In this document: positions 3,216 through 18,900 of the stretch, piece after piece | How positions within the stretch are numbered: the stretch's first letter is position 1 | Layout of the letters: every line of letters begins with the position of its first letter | Source: Fimbriimonadaceae bacterium | Lineage (GTDB): Bacteria > Armatimonadota > UBA10988 | NCBI GenBank assembly: GCA_020850355.1 | Contig: JADZEX010000050.1 | Span: 124,001 to 188,000, forward strand | Reading direction: 5' to 3' | Length of the DNA stretch: 64,000 nt | The notes under the pieces: model-generated | Told to the model about the DNA's origin: nothing | Database searches by the model: none | The model's input: the letters and a program-made list of their open reading frames with translations, nothing else | Program-made: the position numbers and the translations under genes

Positions 3216-3425
3216 TCAGGCGGCGACGTACTCCACCCGGGTGGTGGGATCGGGGACGGGTAGACCGTCCTCGCGCAACCCCGCCAGGTGCAGGGCGATC
3301 GCGGCCGCCAACTCCCGGCGCACTTCGGCGGGGGTGGCGCCGGTGGCCACGCAGCCCGGCAGGTCGGGAACGTACGCTGACCAGTTGTGGCCGGCCCGCT
3401 CCATCACGGTGGCGTACTGCTTCAT
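3216..3425 (-). CDS. hicB: HicB-type antitoxin (short form)
   Basis: The 69-residue protein matches the partial RNase H-like fold of HicB antitoxins: an N-terminal strand (YATVMERAG), the hallmark VPDLPGCVATGAT, a helix with regularly spaced Ala/Leu, and the tail DGLPVPDP. HicB neutralises the HicA mRNA interferase by direct binding. This copy ends after the core fold and has no C-terminal ribbon-helix-helix or HTH domain, so it may not repress its own operon. It is translationally coupled to the preceding hicA through an ATGA overlap at 3422-3425. The order toxin then antitoxin is usual for hicAB. Confidence 0.9.
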   Translation of the reverse strand: MKQYATVMERAGHNWSAYVPDLPGCVATGATPAEVRRELAAAIALHLAGLREDGLPVPDPTTRVEYVAA

Positions 3426-3616
3426 ACTCGGTCGCTCCAGCCGGCTTGGCGAGCGATGCTGCGCAACGTCCCCGGCGCCAGATCATCCGACTCCTGGCCG
3501 GCGACCGTGACCCGTCCGGGGACCACTGGGTGCTTGAACTGCCGATGGCTCCCGACGGTCTGGACCAGGTACCAGCCGTCCCGTCGGAGTCGCTTCAGAG
3601 CCTCCCGGACCTTCAC
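3422..3616 (-). CDS. hicA: HicA-type mRNA interferase toxin
   Basis: The protein is a 64-residue double-stranded-RNA-binding-like fold. It has the HicA signature: KVREALKRLRRDGW, then GSHRQFKHP with the catalytic histidine at residue 24, then a TVAG strand and SDDLAPGTLRSIARQAG. HicA cleaves mRNA until bound by HicB. I chose GTG at 3616 because family members begin at this KVRE motif and GGGG lies six bases upstream; a longer form from GTG 3628 adds four residues. A possible minus-strand -10 (TACACT, 3663-3658) lies upstream without a convincing -35. Confidence 0.88.
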   Translation of the reverse strand: MKVREALKRLRRDGWYLVQTVGSHRQFKHPVVPGRVTVAGQESDDLAPGTLRSIARQAGWSDRV

Positions 3617-3813
3617 CGCGTGCCCCACAGGCCATGCGCCGCGCCAGGACCACCTGTAGTGTAGCGCATCTGCGACAGCCCGGGCAGGTCCGCCTGGCGG
3701 CCAGGCGCTGCGAGCTGAGCCGGCCGGGTCGGTGTTCGTCGCGGCGCCGCGGTCCCATTGGTCTGGTGGCGCCCGCGGCTATCAAGGCGGCCGGCCCGGC
3801 GGCCCCCCGCGCT

Positions 3814-12176: not shown

Positions 12177-14942
12177 ATGCCGACCCTCGCCGTGCTGTTG
12201 CTGTGGACCGGTCTGCTGCAGGCCGAGCCGGCGGTGACGCTGCATGTCGCCCTGACCGGGGCCGACACCAGCCCCGGCACCGCCGCGGCGCCCTTCGCTA
12301 CCTTGGAAGGCGCCCGCGACGCGGTCCGCAAACTGCGCCAGGCCGGACCCTTGCCGACTGGCGGGGTCACCGTGCTGGTGCATGCCGGCACTTACCAACG
12401 TAGCGGCCCGCTGCAACTCGGCGCGGCCGACGCTGGGACGGCCGCCGCGCCCATCGAGTACCGGGCGGCACCTGGGGAGCGGGTGGTGCTCACCGGCGCC
12501 CGCCGGATCGTCGGCTGGCAGCCGCATCAGGGGGCGGTGTGGAAGGCTGACGTCGCGGCGCAGGGGTTCCGCGACCGGTACTTCCGGCAGCTCTTTTTGG
12601 ATGGGCGCCGGCAACACCTGGCGCGCTACCCGAACTACGACCCCGGCAACCCCCACGGCGGCGGCTTCGCCTACGTCGACGGCGAGCCGCTCAGCATGTA
12701 CCGCGACCTGCCGACCGAGGAGCTGCGGCAGATCCACACGCGGCCGCCCGACGCCCGGACCTGGGCCCACCCCGAGTTGGCGGAGGTGATCCTGTTCCCG
12801 CGCTACAACTGGATCAACATGGCGCTGCCGGTGACCGCGGCCGATCCGGCGGCCCACACCATCACCCTCGGCCGCGAGGTCAAGTGGGGCAACTTCCAGG
12901 GCATCCGGCCGCTCGACCGCTACTACGTCCGCAACCTGCCCGAGGAGCTCGACGCGCCGGGCGAGTGGTGGCTGGACCGCGAGAGCTGGCAGCTCTACTA
13001 CTGGCCGCCCCAACCGCTGGAGCGGTCCGAAGTGCGCGCGCCGGTCGCCGAGAGCTTGATCGAGTTGAGCAAGGGGGCCGACTGCATCACCATCCGCGGC
13101 TTCGTGATCGAAGGCTGCGACGGCACCGCGGTCAATGTGCGCGAGGCGCAGCACTGCCGGATCGTCGGCAACACCGTCCACGATACGGGCGGCCGCCTGG
13201 GTGGTTCGGCTGGGATCGTCGTGTCGGGCGGCCGCGATGTCGGTGTCGTGGGCAACGATGTCTACGAAGTGTGCAACGACGGCATTCGGGTCGACAGCGA
13301 TGGCGCTGACCGCGAGGCGCTGACCCCGACCGGCCACTTCGTCGACAACAACTACGTCCACCACATCGGCGTCCTCAACGGCCACGGCTGCGGCATCACG
13401 GTGTACGGCATCGGCAACCGGGTCAGCCACAACCTGATCCACGACACCACCCGCTGCGGCATCTACGGCGGCGGCACCGACTGCGTGGTCGAGTACAACC
13501 GCATCCGGCATGTCAACCTGGAGACCGAGGACACCGGCGGCACCTACATGGGAGCCGGTTGGCACGTCCGCGGGATGGTCTACCGCTACAACTTCCTGAG
13601 CGACATTCTGGGCTACGGCCGGACCGGCAACCGCTGGACCAGCCCGCACTTCGCCTGGGGGATCTACCTCGACGACGACCTCAGCGGGGTGCATGTCCAC
13701 GGCAACATCGTCGCCCGCACCACCCTGGGCGGCAGCCACATCCACGCCGGGCGCGACAACCTGATCGAGAACAACATCTTCGTCGACGGGGCCAACCAGC
13801 AGATGCAGTACAGCGGCCACGAGCCGGAGTCCTGGGTCGTCAAGATGCACCTCGCCGAGTTCGAGAAGTGGTTCGCCAGGCCGGCCTGGCAGGCCCGCTA
13901 CCCGGAGCTGGCAGAGACCGACCGCGCAAAGCTCTACCTGATGGCCGGCAACCGCTTCGAGCGCAACATCGTGTCGTACCGCAGCCCCACGGCCTGGCTC
14001 TACCGCTACAGCCGCAACGACGCGCCGGAGACCAACACCAGCGACTACAACCTGATCTGGCACCACGGCACGCCACCCAACCTGGGGCTGCCGAACACCC
14101 CGCTGGAGCAGCAGTGGGCCGCCTGGCAGCAGACCGGGCAGGACGTGCATAGCCAGCTCGGCGACCCGCTGTTTGTCGATGCGGCGCACGACGACTATCG
14201 GCTGCAGCCCAACTCGCCCGCGCTGGCACTGGGCTTCCAGCCGATCCCGGTGGAGCAGATCGGGCCTTACGCCAGCCCCGACCGGGCCACCTGGCCAATC
14301 GTCGAGGCGCCGGGCGTGCGCGAGATCCCGCTGGTGACGACTGTGATCGAGCCGACCCCGCCCGCGGCGCCGGCCCGGCCGCTGGCGGCTGTGCCACGGG
14401 TGCCGCAGCTTCCAGAGGCCGCCACCGGCTGGCCACAGCCGGTCCTGCCGCTGTCCCAGCACCCCGATGGCAGCCCGGTGGCATCGGGGCCGGCGGCACT
14501 GCAGCTCTGCTGGGACGGCTCCGCGCTTGGGGTCCAGGTGACGGTGCCGATCCTGCCCGGCCAGGCCTTGCGGCTGGGCCACACCTGGGAGCAGCACGAC
14601 GCCGCAGAGGTCTGTTGGCAGGATCTCAGCCGACCAGGGGTCGCAGTCTTCGTCTCGCACGGTTACGCCGACGGCACCTGCGAAACAGTGGTTCACGGCG
14701 GCGGTGCCGACCTGGCCTCGCCGCTGCAGGCCGCCACCCGCTTCCGCGCCGCGGTGCAGCCGCAGCAATGGCTCGCCGGCTGGCACCTGCCGCTGACGGT
14801 CGCCGGGCTGACACCGCGAACGGGTCTGCGGCTGGCGTTCAACGTCGGGGTGCGCCGCGCCGCCAGCAATCAATGGTTGCAGTGGTGCGGCTCGGGCAGC
14901 ACTTACAGCGTGGAGCGCGCCGGCATCCTCGAACTCCGCTGA
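12177..14942 (+). CDS. Secreted right-handed beta-helix protein with C-terminal CBM9-like domain
   Basis: The 921-residue product has a signal peptide ending near residue 17 (LQA-E). After the opening LHVALTGADTSPGT, a carbohydrate-type beta-helix runs to about residue 690. Its short turns carry N-rich repeats such as HCRIVGNTVHDTGG, GVVGNDVYEVCNDGI and GVHVHGNIVARTTLGG. From about 755 to the end is a sandwich resembling carbohydrate family 9 binding modules (LQLCWDGSALGVQVTVP, HDAAEVCWQD, LRLAFNVGVRR). Beta-helix proteins of this type are usually polysaccharide lyases or hydrolases; substrate and catalytic residues cannot be read here. AGGAG lies six bases before the ATG. The convergent HicB-Tudor gene ends four bases downstream. 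Confidence 0.85.
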   Translation: MPTLAVLLLWTGLLQAEPAVTLHVALTGADTSPGTAAAPFATLEGARDAVRKLRQAGPLPTGGVTVLVHAGTYQRSGPLQLGAADAGTAAAPIEYRAAPGERVVLTGARRIVGWQPHQGAVWKADVAAQGFRDRYFRQLFLDGRRQHLARYPNYDPGNPHGGGFAYVDGEPLSMYRDLPTEELRQIHTRPPDARTWAHPELAEVILFPRYNWINMALPVTAADPAAHTITLGREVKWGNFQGIRPLDRYYVRNLPEELDAPGEWWLDRESWQLYYWPPQPLERSEVRAPVAESLIELSKGADCITIRGFVIEGCDGTAVNVREAQHCRIVGNTVHDTGGRLGGSAGIVVSGGRDVGVVGNDVYEVCNDGIRVDSDGADREALTPTGHFVDNNYVHHIGVLNGHGCGITVYGIGNRVSHNLIHDTTRCGIYGGGTDCVVEYNRIRHVNLETEDTGGTYMGAGWHVRGMVYRYNFLSDILGYGRTGNRWTSPHFAWGIYLDDDLSGVHVHGNIVARTTLGGSHIHAGRDNLIENNIFVDGANQQMQYSGHEPESWVVKMHLAEFEKWFARPAWQARYPELAETDRAKLYLMAGNRFERNIVSYRSPTAWLYRYSRNDAPETNTSDYNLIWHHGTPPNLGLPNTPLEQQWAAWQQTGQDVHSQLGDPLFVDAAHDDYRLQPNSPALALGFQPIPVEQIGPYASPDRATWPIVEAPGVREIPLVTTVIEPTPPAAPARPLAAVPRVPQLPEAATGWPQPVLPLSQHPDGSPVASGPAALQLCWDGSALGVQVTVPILPGQALRLGHTWEQHDAAEVCWQDLSRPGVAVFVSHGYADGTCETVVHGGGADLASPLQAATRFRAAVQPQQWLAGWHLPLTVAGLTPRTGLRLAFNVGVRRAASNQWLQWCGSGSTYSVERAGILELR

Positions 14943-14945
14943 GCC

Positions 14946-15524
14946 TCAGCGCGTCAGGCGGCAGAACCCGACAGTAGTCCACTCCTGGTCGCCGTCGTCG
15001 TAGACCACGTGGATCCGCTCGCTGCCCTCGGCCAGGCTGACCTGGCCTGGGTAGTACTCGTCGCCGCCCTGCCAGCGACAGTAGACGCGGTCGCCGACCT
15101 CCAAGTCCAGGGGCATCACCCGTTCGGGCACCGTCCACTCCTTGTCGCCGTCGTCGAACTTGACGTAGACCCGGCCCGGCGCGGCCTGGCGCACCGTGGC
15201 GGGGTACCAGAACAGATCGTGGCTCCATTGACAGAGCACGCGGTCGCCGGCCACCCAGTCCGCCGGCGGTGCGCCCGGGCCGGTCGGAAGGGGCGCCAGC
15301 GTCTCGGGACGACTCGCCGGCGGCACCCGACCGCCGGCTTGGAGGGTCTCCGCGATCGCCGCCGCGAGTTGCTGCAACGCCCCCTCCAGCGCTTCGGCTG
15401 GCGTCGCCCCGGCGGCCCGGACGGTTGGCCAGTCGGGGACCAGGGCGATGGCGCCGGCGGGTGGGCCACCGCACAGCACCACCGGGTAGTCGAAGGTCGC
15501 CGGAGGCAGTGGAAGCAGGTCCAC
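14946..15524 (-). CDS. HicB-like domain fused to two tandem Tudor-like domains
   Basis: Start GTG 15524 has GGAG seven bases upstream and lies two bases after the GH20 stop, giving 192 residues. Residues 11-75 follow the HicB antitoxin pattern (FDYPVVLCGG, ALVPDWPTVRAAGATPAEALEG, a long Ala/Leu helix, GGRVPPASRPE), comparable to the HicB at 3216. After a Pro-rich linker come two copies of a Tudor/Agenet-like barrel: 91-138 (GDRVLCQW, WYPATV, VYVKFDDGDKEWT) and 142-190 (GDRVYCRW, YYPGQV, HVVYDDGDQEWT). The aromatic residues W100, W106/Y107, F123, W151, Y157/Y158 and Y175 are placed as in peptide-binding cages. No hicA-like gene is adjacent. Its function and partner are unknown. I know of no established family with this fusion. 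Confidence 0.8.
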   Translation of the reverse strand: MDLLPLPPATFDYPVVLCGGPPAGAIALVPDWPTVRAAGATPAEALEGALQQLAAAIAETLQAGGRVPPASRPETLAPLPTGPGAPPADWVAGDRVLCQWSHDLFWYPATVRQAAPGRVYVKFDDGDKEWTVPERVMPLDLEVGDRVYCRWQGGDEYYPGQVSLAEGSERIHVVYDDGDQEWTTVGFCRLTR

Positions 15525-15526
15525 GG

Positions 15527-18418
15527 TCAGGCTCCGTTCGTCACAGGCTCGTCGTCCAGCAACAGCCACACCTCGCCCTGGCTGTCGGTGCCGCCGCTGC
15601 TGGCGACCTCGGCCAGCAGCTCCAGCGGCGTGGCCGCGCCGGGCGGGACGGTCAAGCTGAAGAGGTTGCCGCTGCTGCCCGAGCCGGCCCAGCCGCGGTG
15701 GCGGTCCTCCGGGCCGGCGACGGCGCCACGCTGCAGGCGGGCTGCCTGGATCACCAGGCCGTGCGCCCCGCGAAGGTACTCGAACTCGACCCGCGCCGCT
15801 GTCCGGCCAGCCAGCAGGGCCGGCTCGATCGCCAGCCGTAGCACGGTGCCGGCCTGGCTCATCTGCGCCGGCTGCCACTCACCCAGGCGGATGGCCCGGC
15901 CGCTTTCGAGCCCCACCTCGCGGGCCGCTGGCAGGTCGCTGCGGCGGCCCGCCGCCAGGTCGGCTGCCAGGCCCTCCAGCCGCGCCGCGAAGCTCTCGTG
16001 GGCGGTCAGCAGGGCGGTCAGCCGCTCGACATCGCCGGCGTAGGCGCCGGTCGCGGTGACCGCTTGCTGGTAGAGGTCGCGCACCTCGCGCAGTTCGGGC
16101 TGCAGGGCCGTCACCGCCACGGCGACCGCGTGCAGCTCGATGGCGGCCGCGGCGGGCGCGCCCGGCAGGCGGCCGAGCGCGCGGATGTAGCCCTGGCTGC
16201 CCTCGGCAGTGACCATCAGCCGCCGCAGCGCATTGCGCTGCAACAGCAGGGCCGCCCGGGCGAAGGGCAGCAGGTCGGCGTTGCGCTGCGCCTGGCCGCT
16301 GAGTCGTTGCAGCCCCTGGAGGGCGTTGTCGAGCGCCATCAAACCGGGCTTGGCGGCCGCGACCAGCTCCGGCTGCTTCAGCCCGAAGTCGCGCCGGACG
16401 CGGTCGGGCGGGCAGACCACCAGGGCGTTCAGCCGCCGCTGATCGGTCAGCGCCGCGCCCGCAACGGCTGCGGGGGTCGGGTCCACCAGCACCTCTCGCA
16501 GCAGCCTCCCGGCCGGGTCCTGGCAGCCCAGGATCTGGTCGGCGTAGCGCCGCTCGAAGTCGGCCGTGGTCCCACGGCCGAGTGACCAAGAGCACTCGGC
16601 GGTATAGAGCATCCCGAGCAGGCTGTTGGCGGCCAGAGCGCCGCCCATCCATTCCCAAGTGGTGGTCATCGCGCCGCGGCAGCCGCGCTCGGCCGCGGCG
16701 CGCAGGAACCCGCGGATGCCGCGGTAGGTGGTGGCATGGTCGGGCCAGAGGCGGCTGTAGCTGACGATCGCCGGCGAGGCCCAGACATCGGCGTAGCCAA
16801 GCTGCTGGTAGGTCGCGATTTCCGGGTAGGCCGCCGGGCCGTGGTAGATCCACTCGGTCGGGATGCTGTCCTTGGGCATCGCCGCGGCGTACTGGATGCT
16901 CATGTTGGACAGCTCCGGCGTCGGGCCGTGATGCGACGGCCAGAAGAGCATCGTGAAGCCGTGGCGGCGGCAGAGCTGGTTGAGCTTCTGGAGGTGCTCG
17001 GTGTAGAGCCCCCCGACGCCACCCGCGGCGACCTTGGCCGCGCAGGCCGGGCACTTGCCGAAGTTCATCTCAAACTCGTCGGCGCCGACGTGGAGGTACC
17101 GGGCAGCCGGGAACTGCTCGCGCAGCTCGCCGTAGACGCGGTCCAGGAACTCCCAGGTGGCCGGGGAGCTGGTGCAGAAGACCCAGGGGTCGCCGGCTTC
17201 GCGCAGCGCGGCCAGCTCGGGTGCCTGCAGGACCGCCGAGGCGTGGCCGAGGGACTCGAACTGCGGGATCAACTGCACGTGGTACCGCCGCGCCACGTCG
17301 GCGAGCTGGCCTGCCTTGGCGGGCGTGAAGGTGCCCGGGCGACCGAGGAAGGGGTACTGCCGAAACTGGTAGTCGTTCTCCCCGTAGATCATCAGCGCGT
17401 TGAGCTTGCTGCGGGCCAGCAGCCGGATCAGGCGGGTCCACCAGGCGACGTCGACCGTCTGTCCACGCGCCACATCGTACTGCAGGCCGCGCAACGGGAA
17501 GGCCGGGCGATCGACGATGCGGCAGTGCGGCAGGCTGCCGTCGGCGCGGACCAGTTGCCCCGCGGTGCAGGCCCCGTAGAACAGCCCGGCGGCGCTGCTA
17601 GCCTCGACCACCACGCCGCTGGCGGTGACGCTGACGCGGTGCTCTTCGGAGTCGGCCGGCAGCGTGGTCACCCGCCGTAGCTGCAGGTCGCCGGCGCGCG
17701 AGGCGCTGGTCACCACCGTCAGCCGCAGCCCGCAACGCTCGGCAATCAGGTCGACCAGCTCAGCCGCCGCCTCCCGGTCCGCCGGCGGCGCCGCCGCGGC
17801 CAGGACCAGGCGGCTGCCCTTGGTCAGGTGCAGCTCACCCGCCAGCAGGCTGATCTCCCGCGGCAGCGGCAACGGGCTAACCCGACGGGTCGCCAGCTCG
17901 GCCAGCAACGCCCGCTCGGCCTGCTGCTCCGGCGTGTCGGCCAGCACCCAAGCCTGGATCGGCCGCTGGTCGTGGTCGCGGTAGAGCGTCCAGCCATCGC
18001 CGCTGACCGTGGCGCTGACGAACAGCGTCAGGTACCCCCGCGCACAGTCGGTCGGACGCACCGCCGCCGTCAGGTCAATCGGGGCGACGTTGCTCTGGTT
18101 CCAGGCGTCGCCGTTGGCGATCACCGGCCCGCGGTGGATCACCTCCCCAGCGGCCGCGTCGCGGCGCAGCACCAACTGGTAGGAGCTGCCCTTGCCCGAA
18201 AACCCGACCACGTTGCCGAGCCCGACGGCCAACGTCAGCGGCGGTTGTGGCGGTAGCGGGAAGCGCAGCTCGACAGTCTCGCCGGACGGCAGATTGCCGA
18301 GATGGCTCTCCCCCTGTGGCGTCGGCGGCAGCGGCCGGACGAGGCTGGCGCCCTCCAGCCCAGCCTGCGCCCAAACCGCCCGAACGCCGAGCAACGACAG
18401 CAGCAGCAAGCGCCGCAT
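15527..18418 (-). CDS. Secreted GH20 beta-N-acetylhexosaminidase
   Basis: The 963-residue protein has a signal peptide (MRRLLLLSLLGVRAVWAQ), a beta-sandwich at about 25-170, a GH20b-type domain (about 195-290: PLPREISLLAGELHL to YGACTAGQLV), then the GH20 TIM barrel from about 300 (FPLRGLQYDVARGQTVDVAWW). The catalytic pair is in LHVGADEFEMNFG at D447-E448, which uses the substrate acetamido group. A helical segment and a C-terminal sandwich follow (about 860-963). It should release terminal GlcNAc or GalNAc from glycans outside the cytoplasm. Its stop is two bases before the start of the HicB-Tudor gene, so the two are co-transcribed. Confidence 0.93.
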   Translation of the reverse strand: MRRLLLLSLLGVRAVWAQAGLEGASLVRPLPPTPQGESHLGNLPSGETVELRFPLPPQPPLTLAVGLGNVVGFSGKGSSYQLVLRRDAAAGEVIHRGPVIANGDAWNQSNVAPIDLTAAVRPTDCARGYLTLFVSATVSGDGWTLYRDHDQRPIQAWVLADTPEQQAERALLAELATRRVSPLPLPREISLLAGELHLTKGSRLVLAAAAPPADREAAAELVDLIAERCGLRLTVVTSASRAGDLQLRRVTTLPADSEEHRVSVTASGVVVEASSAAGLFYGACTAGQLVRADGSLPHCRIVDRPAFPLRGLQYDVARGQTVDVAWWTRLIRLLARSKLNALMIYGENDYQFRQYPFLGRPGTFTPAKAGQLADVARRYHVQLIPQFESLGHASAVLQAPELAALREAGDPWVFCTSSPATWEFLDRVYGELREQFPAARYLHVGADEFEMNFGKCPACAAKVAAGGVGGLYTEHLQKLNQLCRRHGFTMLFWPSHHGPTPELSNMSIQYAAAMPKDSIPTEWIYHGPAAYPEIATYQQLGYADVWASPAIVSYSRLWPDHATTYRGIRGFLRAAAERGCRGAMTTTWEWMGGALAANSLLGMLYTAECSWSLGRGTTADFERRYADQILGCQDPAGRLLREVLVDPTPAAVAGAALTDQRRLNALVVCPPDRVRRDFGLKQPELVAAAKPGLMALDNALQGLQRLSGQAQRNADLLPFARAALLLQRNALRRLMVTAEGSQGYIRALGRLPGAPAAAAIELHAVAVAVTALQPELREVRDLYQQAVTATGAYAGDVERLTALLTAHESFAARLEGLAADLAAGRRSDLPAAREVGLESGRAIRLGEWQPAQMSQAGTVLRLAIEPALLAGRTAARVEFEYLRGAHGLVIQAARLQRGAVAGPEDRHRGWAGSGSSGNLFSLTVPPGAATPLELLAEVASSGGTDSQGEVWLLLDDEPVTNGA

Positions 18419-18471: not shown

Positions 18472-18900
18472 TCAGGTGGTTGCGAGGGCCGTGAAGCCAG
18501 CCGTGGCGAAGTGCTGGTCAACGGTCAGGGCGTCCTGCATCCCACGGGTGCGCATCACGGCGAAGGAGGTGCAGTCGACGAACGAGAAGCGCTGGTCGCT
18601 GAACCGCCGGAACCACTCCGTGGCCGACTGCCAGAGCGCCCGGTCGATGATCACGACCTCCAAGCGGCTGGAGGCGACCATCTGCTCCACCACACTGTGC
18701 AGCGTCATCGCGGCCGCATGGGAGATATCGTAGCGGAGGCGGGTCAACGCCTCGGCCAGCACGAAGTTCGAGGTGACCAAGGGATGGCCCGCGCGACGCA
18801 TCCGATGCATCAGATCGGCCGCCCGCGCGTGGTGCGGGTCGTCCTTGACCAGCAGCGCAAGCCAGGCCCAGGTGTCCACAAAGGCCTCCGCCGGCTTCAC
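18472..18900 (-). CDS. PIN-domain toxin (VapC-like)
   Basis: The 142-residue PIN ribonuclease keeps the acidic active-site residues D9 (AFVDTWAWL), E50 (NFVLAEALT), D109 (FSFVDCTSFAVM) and D128 (TVDQHF), the pattern that binds Mg2+ in VapC toxins. It begins with GTG and overlaps the upstream antitoxin stop as GTGA at 18897-18900, a typical toxin-antitoxin arrangement. Its likely role is cleavage of tRNA or rRNA when released from the antitoxin; the target is not predictable from sequence. Confidence 0.88.
   Translation of the reverse strand: MKPAEAFVDTWAWLALLVKDDPHHARAADLMHRMRRAGHPLVTSNFVLAEALTRLRYDISHAAAMTLHSVVEQMVASSRLEVVIIDRALWQSATEWFRRFSDQRFSFVDCTSFAVMRTRGMQDALTVDQHFATAGFTALATT

Follow-up and report, generated by a model that had tools for sequence, protein, structure and literature searches.

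A gene of 192 codons in a bacterium of the family Fimbriimonadaceae, phylum Armatimonadota, joins, as judged from sequence and structure models, a HicB-type domain to a tandem Tudor, and its product is a HicB-fold protein outside any hicAB module. The simplest reading of the HicB half, on its sequence, would be a HicB released from its toxin, a solitary ex-antitoxin scaffold being likelier than an antitoxin. For the protein as a whole, the reading tentatively favoured here, with somewhat less than even confidence, is a non-antitoxin adaptor in which the HicB fold would dock or dimerise and the Tudor pair would read, on a protein inside the cell, a side chain that is cationic and probably methylated.

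The gene and its surroundings

The HicB-tandem Tudor reading frame occupies positions 14946-15524 on the minus strand of the window, by which we mean the whole 64,000-nucleotide stretch of DNA that was analysed, and runs from a GTG start at 15524 to a TGA stop ending at 14946. A Shine-Dalgarno-like GGAG motif (15532-15535, minus strand) stands 7 nt before the GTG, within the 3' end of the preceding gene; the minus strand around the start reads ...AACGGAGCCTGACCGTGG..., and also ...AACGGAGCCTGACC-GTG.... All 192 codons lie in one open frame with the junction of the HicB and Tudor halves in-frame, and the codon-position G+C is coding-like in both halves, the HicB half being richer in Ala, Pro and Gly than the Tudor half. 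The two halves are connected by a Pro/Ala-rich linker, residues 74-88 (15261-15305, minus strand), which was delimited from the sequence and from the model, where residues 74-84 have a pLDDT below 50. A chimeric assembly at the HicB/Tudor joint was considered and is unlikely, since the joint is in-frame and inside a 257-kb contig of the assembly that holds the window (6.67 Mb in 117 contigs), the composition matches and the linker is typical.

The genes adjoining the frame are carbohydrate-enzyme-like. On the upstream side, a minus-strand gene at 15527-18418 has Pfam GH20 and GH20b matches and a signal-peptide-like start, and the GTG of the HicB-Tudor frame lies 2 nt past its stop, so that it is, from position alone, the probable operon partner; on the downstream side, a beta-helix gene at 12177-14942 is convergent. 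In G002, another genome of the host's order, the HicB-Tudor gene was not found after the GH20 homologue, and no operon conservation is therefore seen there. That GH20 homologue (L080:5885-8682 in G002) is broken across two frames, by a frameshift or an assembly error. Separately, the segment 18472-19211 of the window (minus strand) carries, upstream of the GH20-type gene, a PIN-domain (VapC-like) gene at 18472-18900 overlapping the end of a short preceding ORF with no Pfam match, likely forming a VapBC-type pair with it, and a pair resembling this one is present on contig C116 of G002 (L080:14811-15631).

The HicB half and the HicA genes of the genome

Residues 12-71 (15312-15491, minus strand) were assigned to a HicB-like (partial RNase H) domain from a HicB HMM, a structure model and a fit to the structure 6g1c, and carry, by sequence and model, the partial RNase H signature and a beta-beta-beta-alpha fold. 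Searched against Pfam, residues 1-79 returned a single family, HicB_lk_antitox (PF15919), at a sub-threshold score (14.4 vs 27 bits, E 0.043); the top PHROGs match of this half was HicB-like (E 0.071), the HicB antitoxins 6u0i and 6hpb were among the phmmer matches in the PDB (E 0.5-0.7), and NCBIfam gave no match for the protein. An HMM of 32 armatimonad HicBs, built without the HicB-Tudor protein, scored residues 12-71 at 33-36 bits (E ~1e-8 at Z=10,000), values that are mildly flattered because some of the 32 came via a profile containing the HicB-Tudor protein, and shuffled controls reached at most 11 bits among 20,000 shuffles. The AlphaFold model of this half, made from a 31-sequence alignment that holds HicB sequences and so not independent of them, has strands at residues 16-20, 24-29 and 32-39 and a helix at 42-62, with a pLDDT of about 80 at residues 11-30 and above 90 at 31-70, and VIA-align superposes this model on 6g1c, the N-domain of a Burkholderia HicB, with Z 9.0 and 2.4 Å over 71 residues; modelled from the single sequence, the half formed helices alone, at a pLDDT of 64.5. 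The HicB-like N-terminal domain that the sequence-only reading had proposed is upheld by these scores, and the modelling, here and for both Tudor barrels below, agrees with the architecture that it described.

The domain is strongly diverged, and 15 of the 35 HicB consensus positions (majority residue) are kept. These include a fold signature made of Y13, V15, A27, V29-P30-D31, P33, G39, T41, E44, G64 and P68, while the LPGC loop has lost its L, G and C and has W32, T34 and V35 instead. In the modelled helix alpha-1 (residues 42-62; 15339-15401, minus strand), the near-invariant E51 and A52, present in 91% and 97% of HicBs respectively, are both replaced by Q; in solved HicAB complexes this helix packs on the HicA sheet (PMC10865869). 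In the tree, the HicB half has the longest terminal branch (2.93, median 0.31) and groups weakly with L005 and L007, both from the same bacterial family as the host, the placement with L007 having a weak support of 90/55 on a long branch.

The closest HicBs (L005/L024, L007/L026 and L004/L025), all from bacteria of that family and 73-76 aa long, as well as the HicB of the window (69 aa), stop where the HicB half stops and have no DNA-binding domain. The suggestion that the Tudor pair replaces such a domain is therefore not borne out, and the pair would have been added to a compact HicB; among hicBA operons, HicBs that have no DNA-binding domain are the most frequent type (PMC10865869). The HicB half shares its partial RNase H signature with these compact HicB_lk_antitox proteins (PF15919), its nearest relatives, some of which adjoin a HicA, but the HicB-Tudor protein differs from them in being without a HicA partner, in the changed LPGC loop and near-invariant helix residues, and in its appended 104-residue tandem Tudor. 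L005/L024 adjoins a HicA (PF07927, E 3e-9), as does L006/L027, from another family, and the L004/L025 and L007/L026 HicBs appear solitary.

As had been noticed from the sequence, no HicA lies alongside 14946-15524, where the neighbours are the GH20-type and beta-helix genes. HicA matches occur at four sites of the genome, the fourth being partial and below the cut-off; each adjoins a HicB-like ORF, itself weak at the fourth site, and a free HicA without its own HicB was not found in the assembly. The window holds a compact hicAB pair at 3216-3628 (minus strand), with a HicA (PF07927, 3.7e-19) upstream of a HicB (PF15919, 4e-8), and this HicA, at 3422, overlaps its own HicB (3216-3425) by 4 bases. 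Because of that overlap, and because the HicA-facing helix of the HicB-Tudor protein is strongly changed, service to the HicA at 3422 looks unlikely. More generally, the protein could still be an antitoxin that acts in trans on this or another HicA, with the Tudor pair giving targeting or regulation as a DNA-binding domain does elsewhere. The kept core of the fold (the signature above, E44 apart) and the HicA beside the relative L005/L024 speak for such an activity, but with no adjoining HicA, a HicB-like ORF alongside each HicA found in the genome, the near-invariant helix residues lost on a very long branch, and the close relatives L004 and L007 likewise solitary, we regard it as unlikely.

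The tandem Tudor and its relatives

In animal and plant chromatin, Tudor domains are readers of methylated proteins. By sequence and model, residues 89-192 of the HicB-Tudor protein are a tandem Tudor with aromatic cage residues in both barrels. Tudor 1 (residues 89-138; 15111-15260, minus strand), delimited by Pfam Tudor_3, alignment with 53BP1 and the model, has the predicted cage W100, Y107, F123 and D125, and Tudor 2 (residues 139-192; 14949-15110, minus strand), delimited by Pfam Tudor_5, alignment of the repeats and the model, has W151, Y158, Y175 and D177. Pfam matches include, at residues 93-180, Tudor_3 (E 1.4e-9) and DUF4537 over both repeats (E 4.7e-9), and further 53-BP1_Tudor (5e-5), among others; the protein scores 38 bits against PF18115, and Tudor 1 aligns with Tudor 2 at a score of 100, where shuffles reach a maximum of 49. 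AlphaFold models both barrels with a pLDDT of 90-96 over most of their length, the top Foldseek matches are the eukaryotic tandem Tudors of BAHCC1, SETDB1 and 53BP1, and in VIA-align the 53BP1 tandem Tudor fits the pair as one unit (Z 14.5, 2.0 Å, 102 residues), with Crb2 at Z 10.6. The tandem Tudors and cage that had been proposed from the sequence thus find support in profile, structure comparison and the W, Y, F/Y and D kept in both repeats.

The 53BP1 cage consists of W1495, Y1502, F1519, D1521 and Y1523 (PMC5974088), and in the alignments W100, Y107, F123 and D125 fall on the first four of these and D127 on Y1523. Since the 53BP1 mutation Y1523A leaves H4K20me2 binding unimpaired (PMC5974088), Asp127 need not abolish binding. 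The two-barrel arrangement is that of the 53BP1/Crb2 tandem Tudor (PF09038, PF18115), with four of the five cage residues in Tudor 1, and the bacterial pair differs in its identity of about 18%, in having a cage in both Tudors, in being more acidic and in the Asp at the Y1523 equivalent. The acidity of the pair (pI 4.6, net charge -8, with -12 for the whole protein) fits a cationic ligand and makes a nucleic-acid ligand less likely. Binding of nucleic acid by the Tudor pair, which would make the product a DNA- or RNA-binding HicB-fold protein, would be in keeping with the RNase H-like fold of HicB and with some SH3-fold Tudors that bind DNA (RBBP1 and 53BP1, as cited in PMC5906684), but both this charge and the conserved cages, which point toward a cationic side chain, make it quite improbable.

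Among 291 genomes of the phylum, those with a Tudor-pair match numbered 9 by single-sequence search and 13 by profile, the host's own counted. The strong matches are stand-alone armatimonad proteins of 107 aa (L017, L020, L021, L022 and L023; 37-51% identity), alike over both Tudors but without the HicB half, and with no signal peptide, L022 being cut by a contig end. W100, Y107, D125 and W151 are invariant in them, positions 123 and 158 hold F or Y, and every complete homologue retains Y175 and D177; two of these proteins have a dN/dS of 0.16 on 14 differences, which indicates that the Tudor pair is a maintained unit. No Tudor-pair homologue was found in the four other genomes of the host's order (G001-G004). 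An internal GTG at V91 of the HicB-Tudor frame (window 15252-15254) stands at the point where the 107-aa homologues start (MPNVGDRV there, VAGDRV here), and the gene might give two products, the full protein and a stand-alone tandem Tudor; this is very improbable, as a weak GGCGGA alone stands ahead of the internal GTG, and both the match to the HicB profile and the start signal further upstream point to the long product.

Outside the phylum, genes annotated as 'tudor domain-containing protein' (for example WP_003553546.1 and WP_099516016.1) occur on plasmids of Rhizobium and Microvirga; their products, at 36-40% identity, share the tandem Tudor with YDDGD..E motifs but differ in their signal-peptide-like starts, probably extracytoplasmic location and lack of HicB, and a Flavobacteriales relative of the pair (L019) likewise has a signal-peptide-like start. 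The hydropathy maximum within the first 35 residues of the HicB-Tudor protein is 1.5, and three proteins that have signal-peptide-like starts reach 2.3-2.6; secretion was rejected on this comparison, made in place of a signal-peptide program, and on the HicB domain at the N-terminus. Other bacterial Tudors were met on the way: an unannotated tandem Tudor ORF on the Methylorubrum plasmid pB146-1 (L030:3800-4300), whose inspected part shows no evident signal peptide; a 'hypervirulence associated protein TUDOR' in Asaia (PMC12502724); and a second armatimonad family (L014-L016, L087-L093) of about 190-230 aa, with a helical N-terminus bearing the motifs ..VLARAEEI.. and ..AAEEAGLSREAVLQALRER.., then two Tudor-like repeats and a C-terminal membrane helix that often ends in ..TWLLMR, whose members are apparently membrane-anchored, cytoplasmic Tudor pairs.

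The earlier statement that Tudor domains bind methylated peptides mainly in eukaryotes is incomplete, since many bacteria have tandem Tudor-like domains, as secreted proteins, according to Kaur et al. 2018 (PMC5906684). The chromo-like domains described there resemble the present pair in their tandem copies and aromatic cage, but are reported to be secreted throughout and to occur in fusions with extracellular domains, caspase-like peptidases among them, and HicB is absent from the fusions named in the section on them. The armatimonad 107-aa proteins and the HicB-Tudor fusion, which have no signal-peptide-like start, depart from this secreted pattern.

The fusion itself occurs in one genome among the 291 armatimonads searched, and the proposed search for further examples yielded no second one in these genomes, a genome-contig scan, IMG/VR, phages or plasmids, a result that is sensitive in armatimonads only, the genome-contig scan resting on short peptide patterns, returning Tudor-side relatives only and counting as a weak negative. 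Phages and viral contigs gave nothing convincing for the fusion, with one Bacteroides phage match at E 0.2, and no such protein emerged by title or abstract from literature full text searched for HicB with Tudor, within a coverage that mostly leaves aside subscription journals. A recent, possibly neutral joining of two modules without a selected joint function would agree with this single occurrence, with the high divergence of the HicB half and with the G002 GH20 homologue that has no HicB-Tudor gene after it. Counting against it are a frame that stays open behind a good start signal, a composition typical of coding DNA, two intact Tudor cages and three domains modelled with confidence (pLDDT 90-96 for the Tudors and about 80-94 for the HicB half), and it is judged improbable. 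The protein might also be a phage-sensing regulator, in which the Tudor pair would detect a modification on a protein of phage or host, with the HicB part signalling to a HicA in trans, given that HicA systems have been proposed in defence (PMC10865869) and that TUDOR domains are known from BREX helicases (PMC12839542); with no PADLOC match, no fusion homologue in phages, viral contigs or plasmids, and carbohydrate-enzyme-like adjoining genes, the chance of this appears slight.

A candidate adaptor and what it may mean

According to the favoured adaptor reading, the gene would specify one cytoplasmic protein in which a flexible Pro-rich linker connects a divergent, solitary module of the HicB type (partial RNase H) to a tandem Tudor resembling that of 53BP1. 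This module would most likely be past neutralising a HicA and have a docking or dimerising role instead, and the Tudor pair would bind, via its two intact cages, a side chain of cationic character, probably that of methylated Lys or Arg in an intracellular partner, which would make the protein an adaptor or reader. The analysis shows the reading frame, the two domain assignments, the cage residues, the charge, and the absence of a signal-peptide-like start and of a free HicA in the assembly; that antitoxin activity is lost, that the protein dimerises, what class of ligand it binds and any role in the cell are what we infer from these features. That the protein is a cytoplasmic bacterial protein-methylation reader, in which an ex-antitoxin HicB scaffold bears a 53BP1-like Tudor pair that recognises methyl-Lys/Arg on an intracellular protein, seems to us rather doubtful; a search of the host's own assembly for a possible writer, which covered SET methyltransferases only, found none.

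The HicB-Tudor protein looks like a toxin-freed HicB module reused in a new architecture. Bacterial Tudor-like domains have so far been described as extracellular. The HicB-Tudor protein and its 107-aa homologues appear to be cytoplasmic; they are short tandem Tudors whose cages are intact, which would make it feasible to ask directly, with purified protein, what such domains read and whether bacteria have intracellular methyl-Lys/Arg readers.
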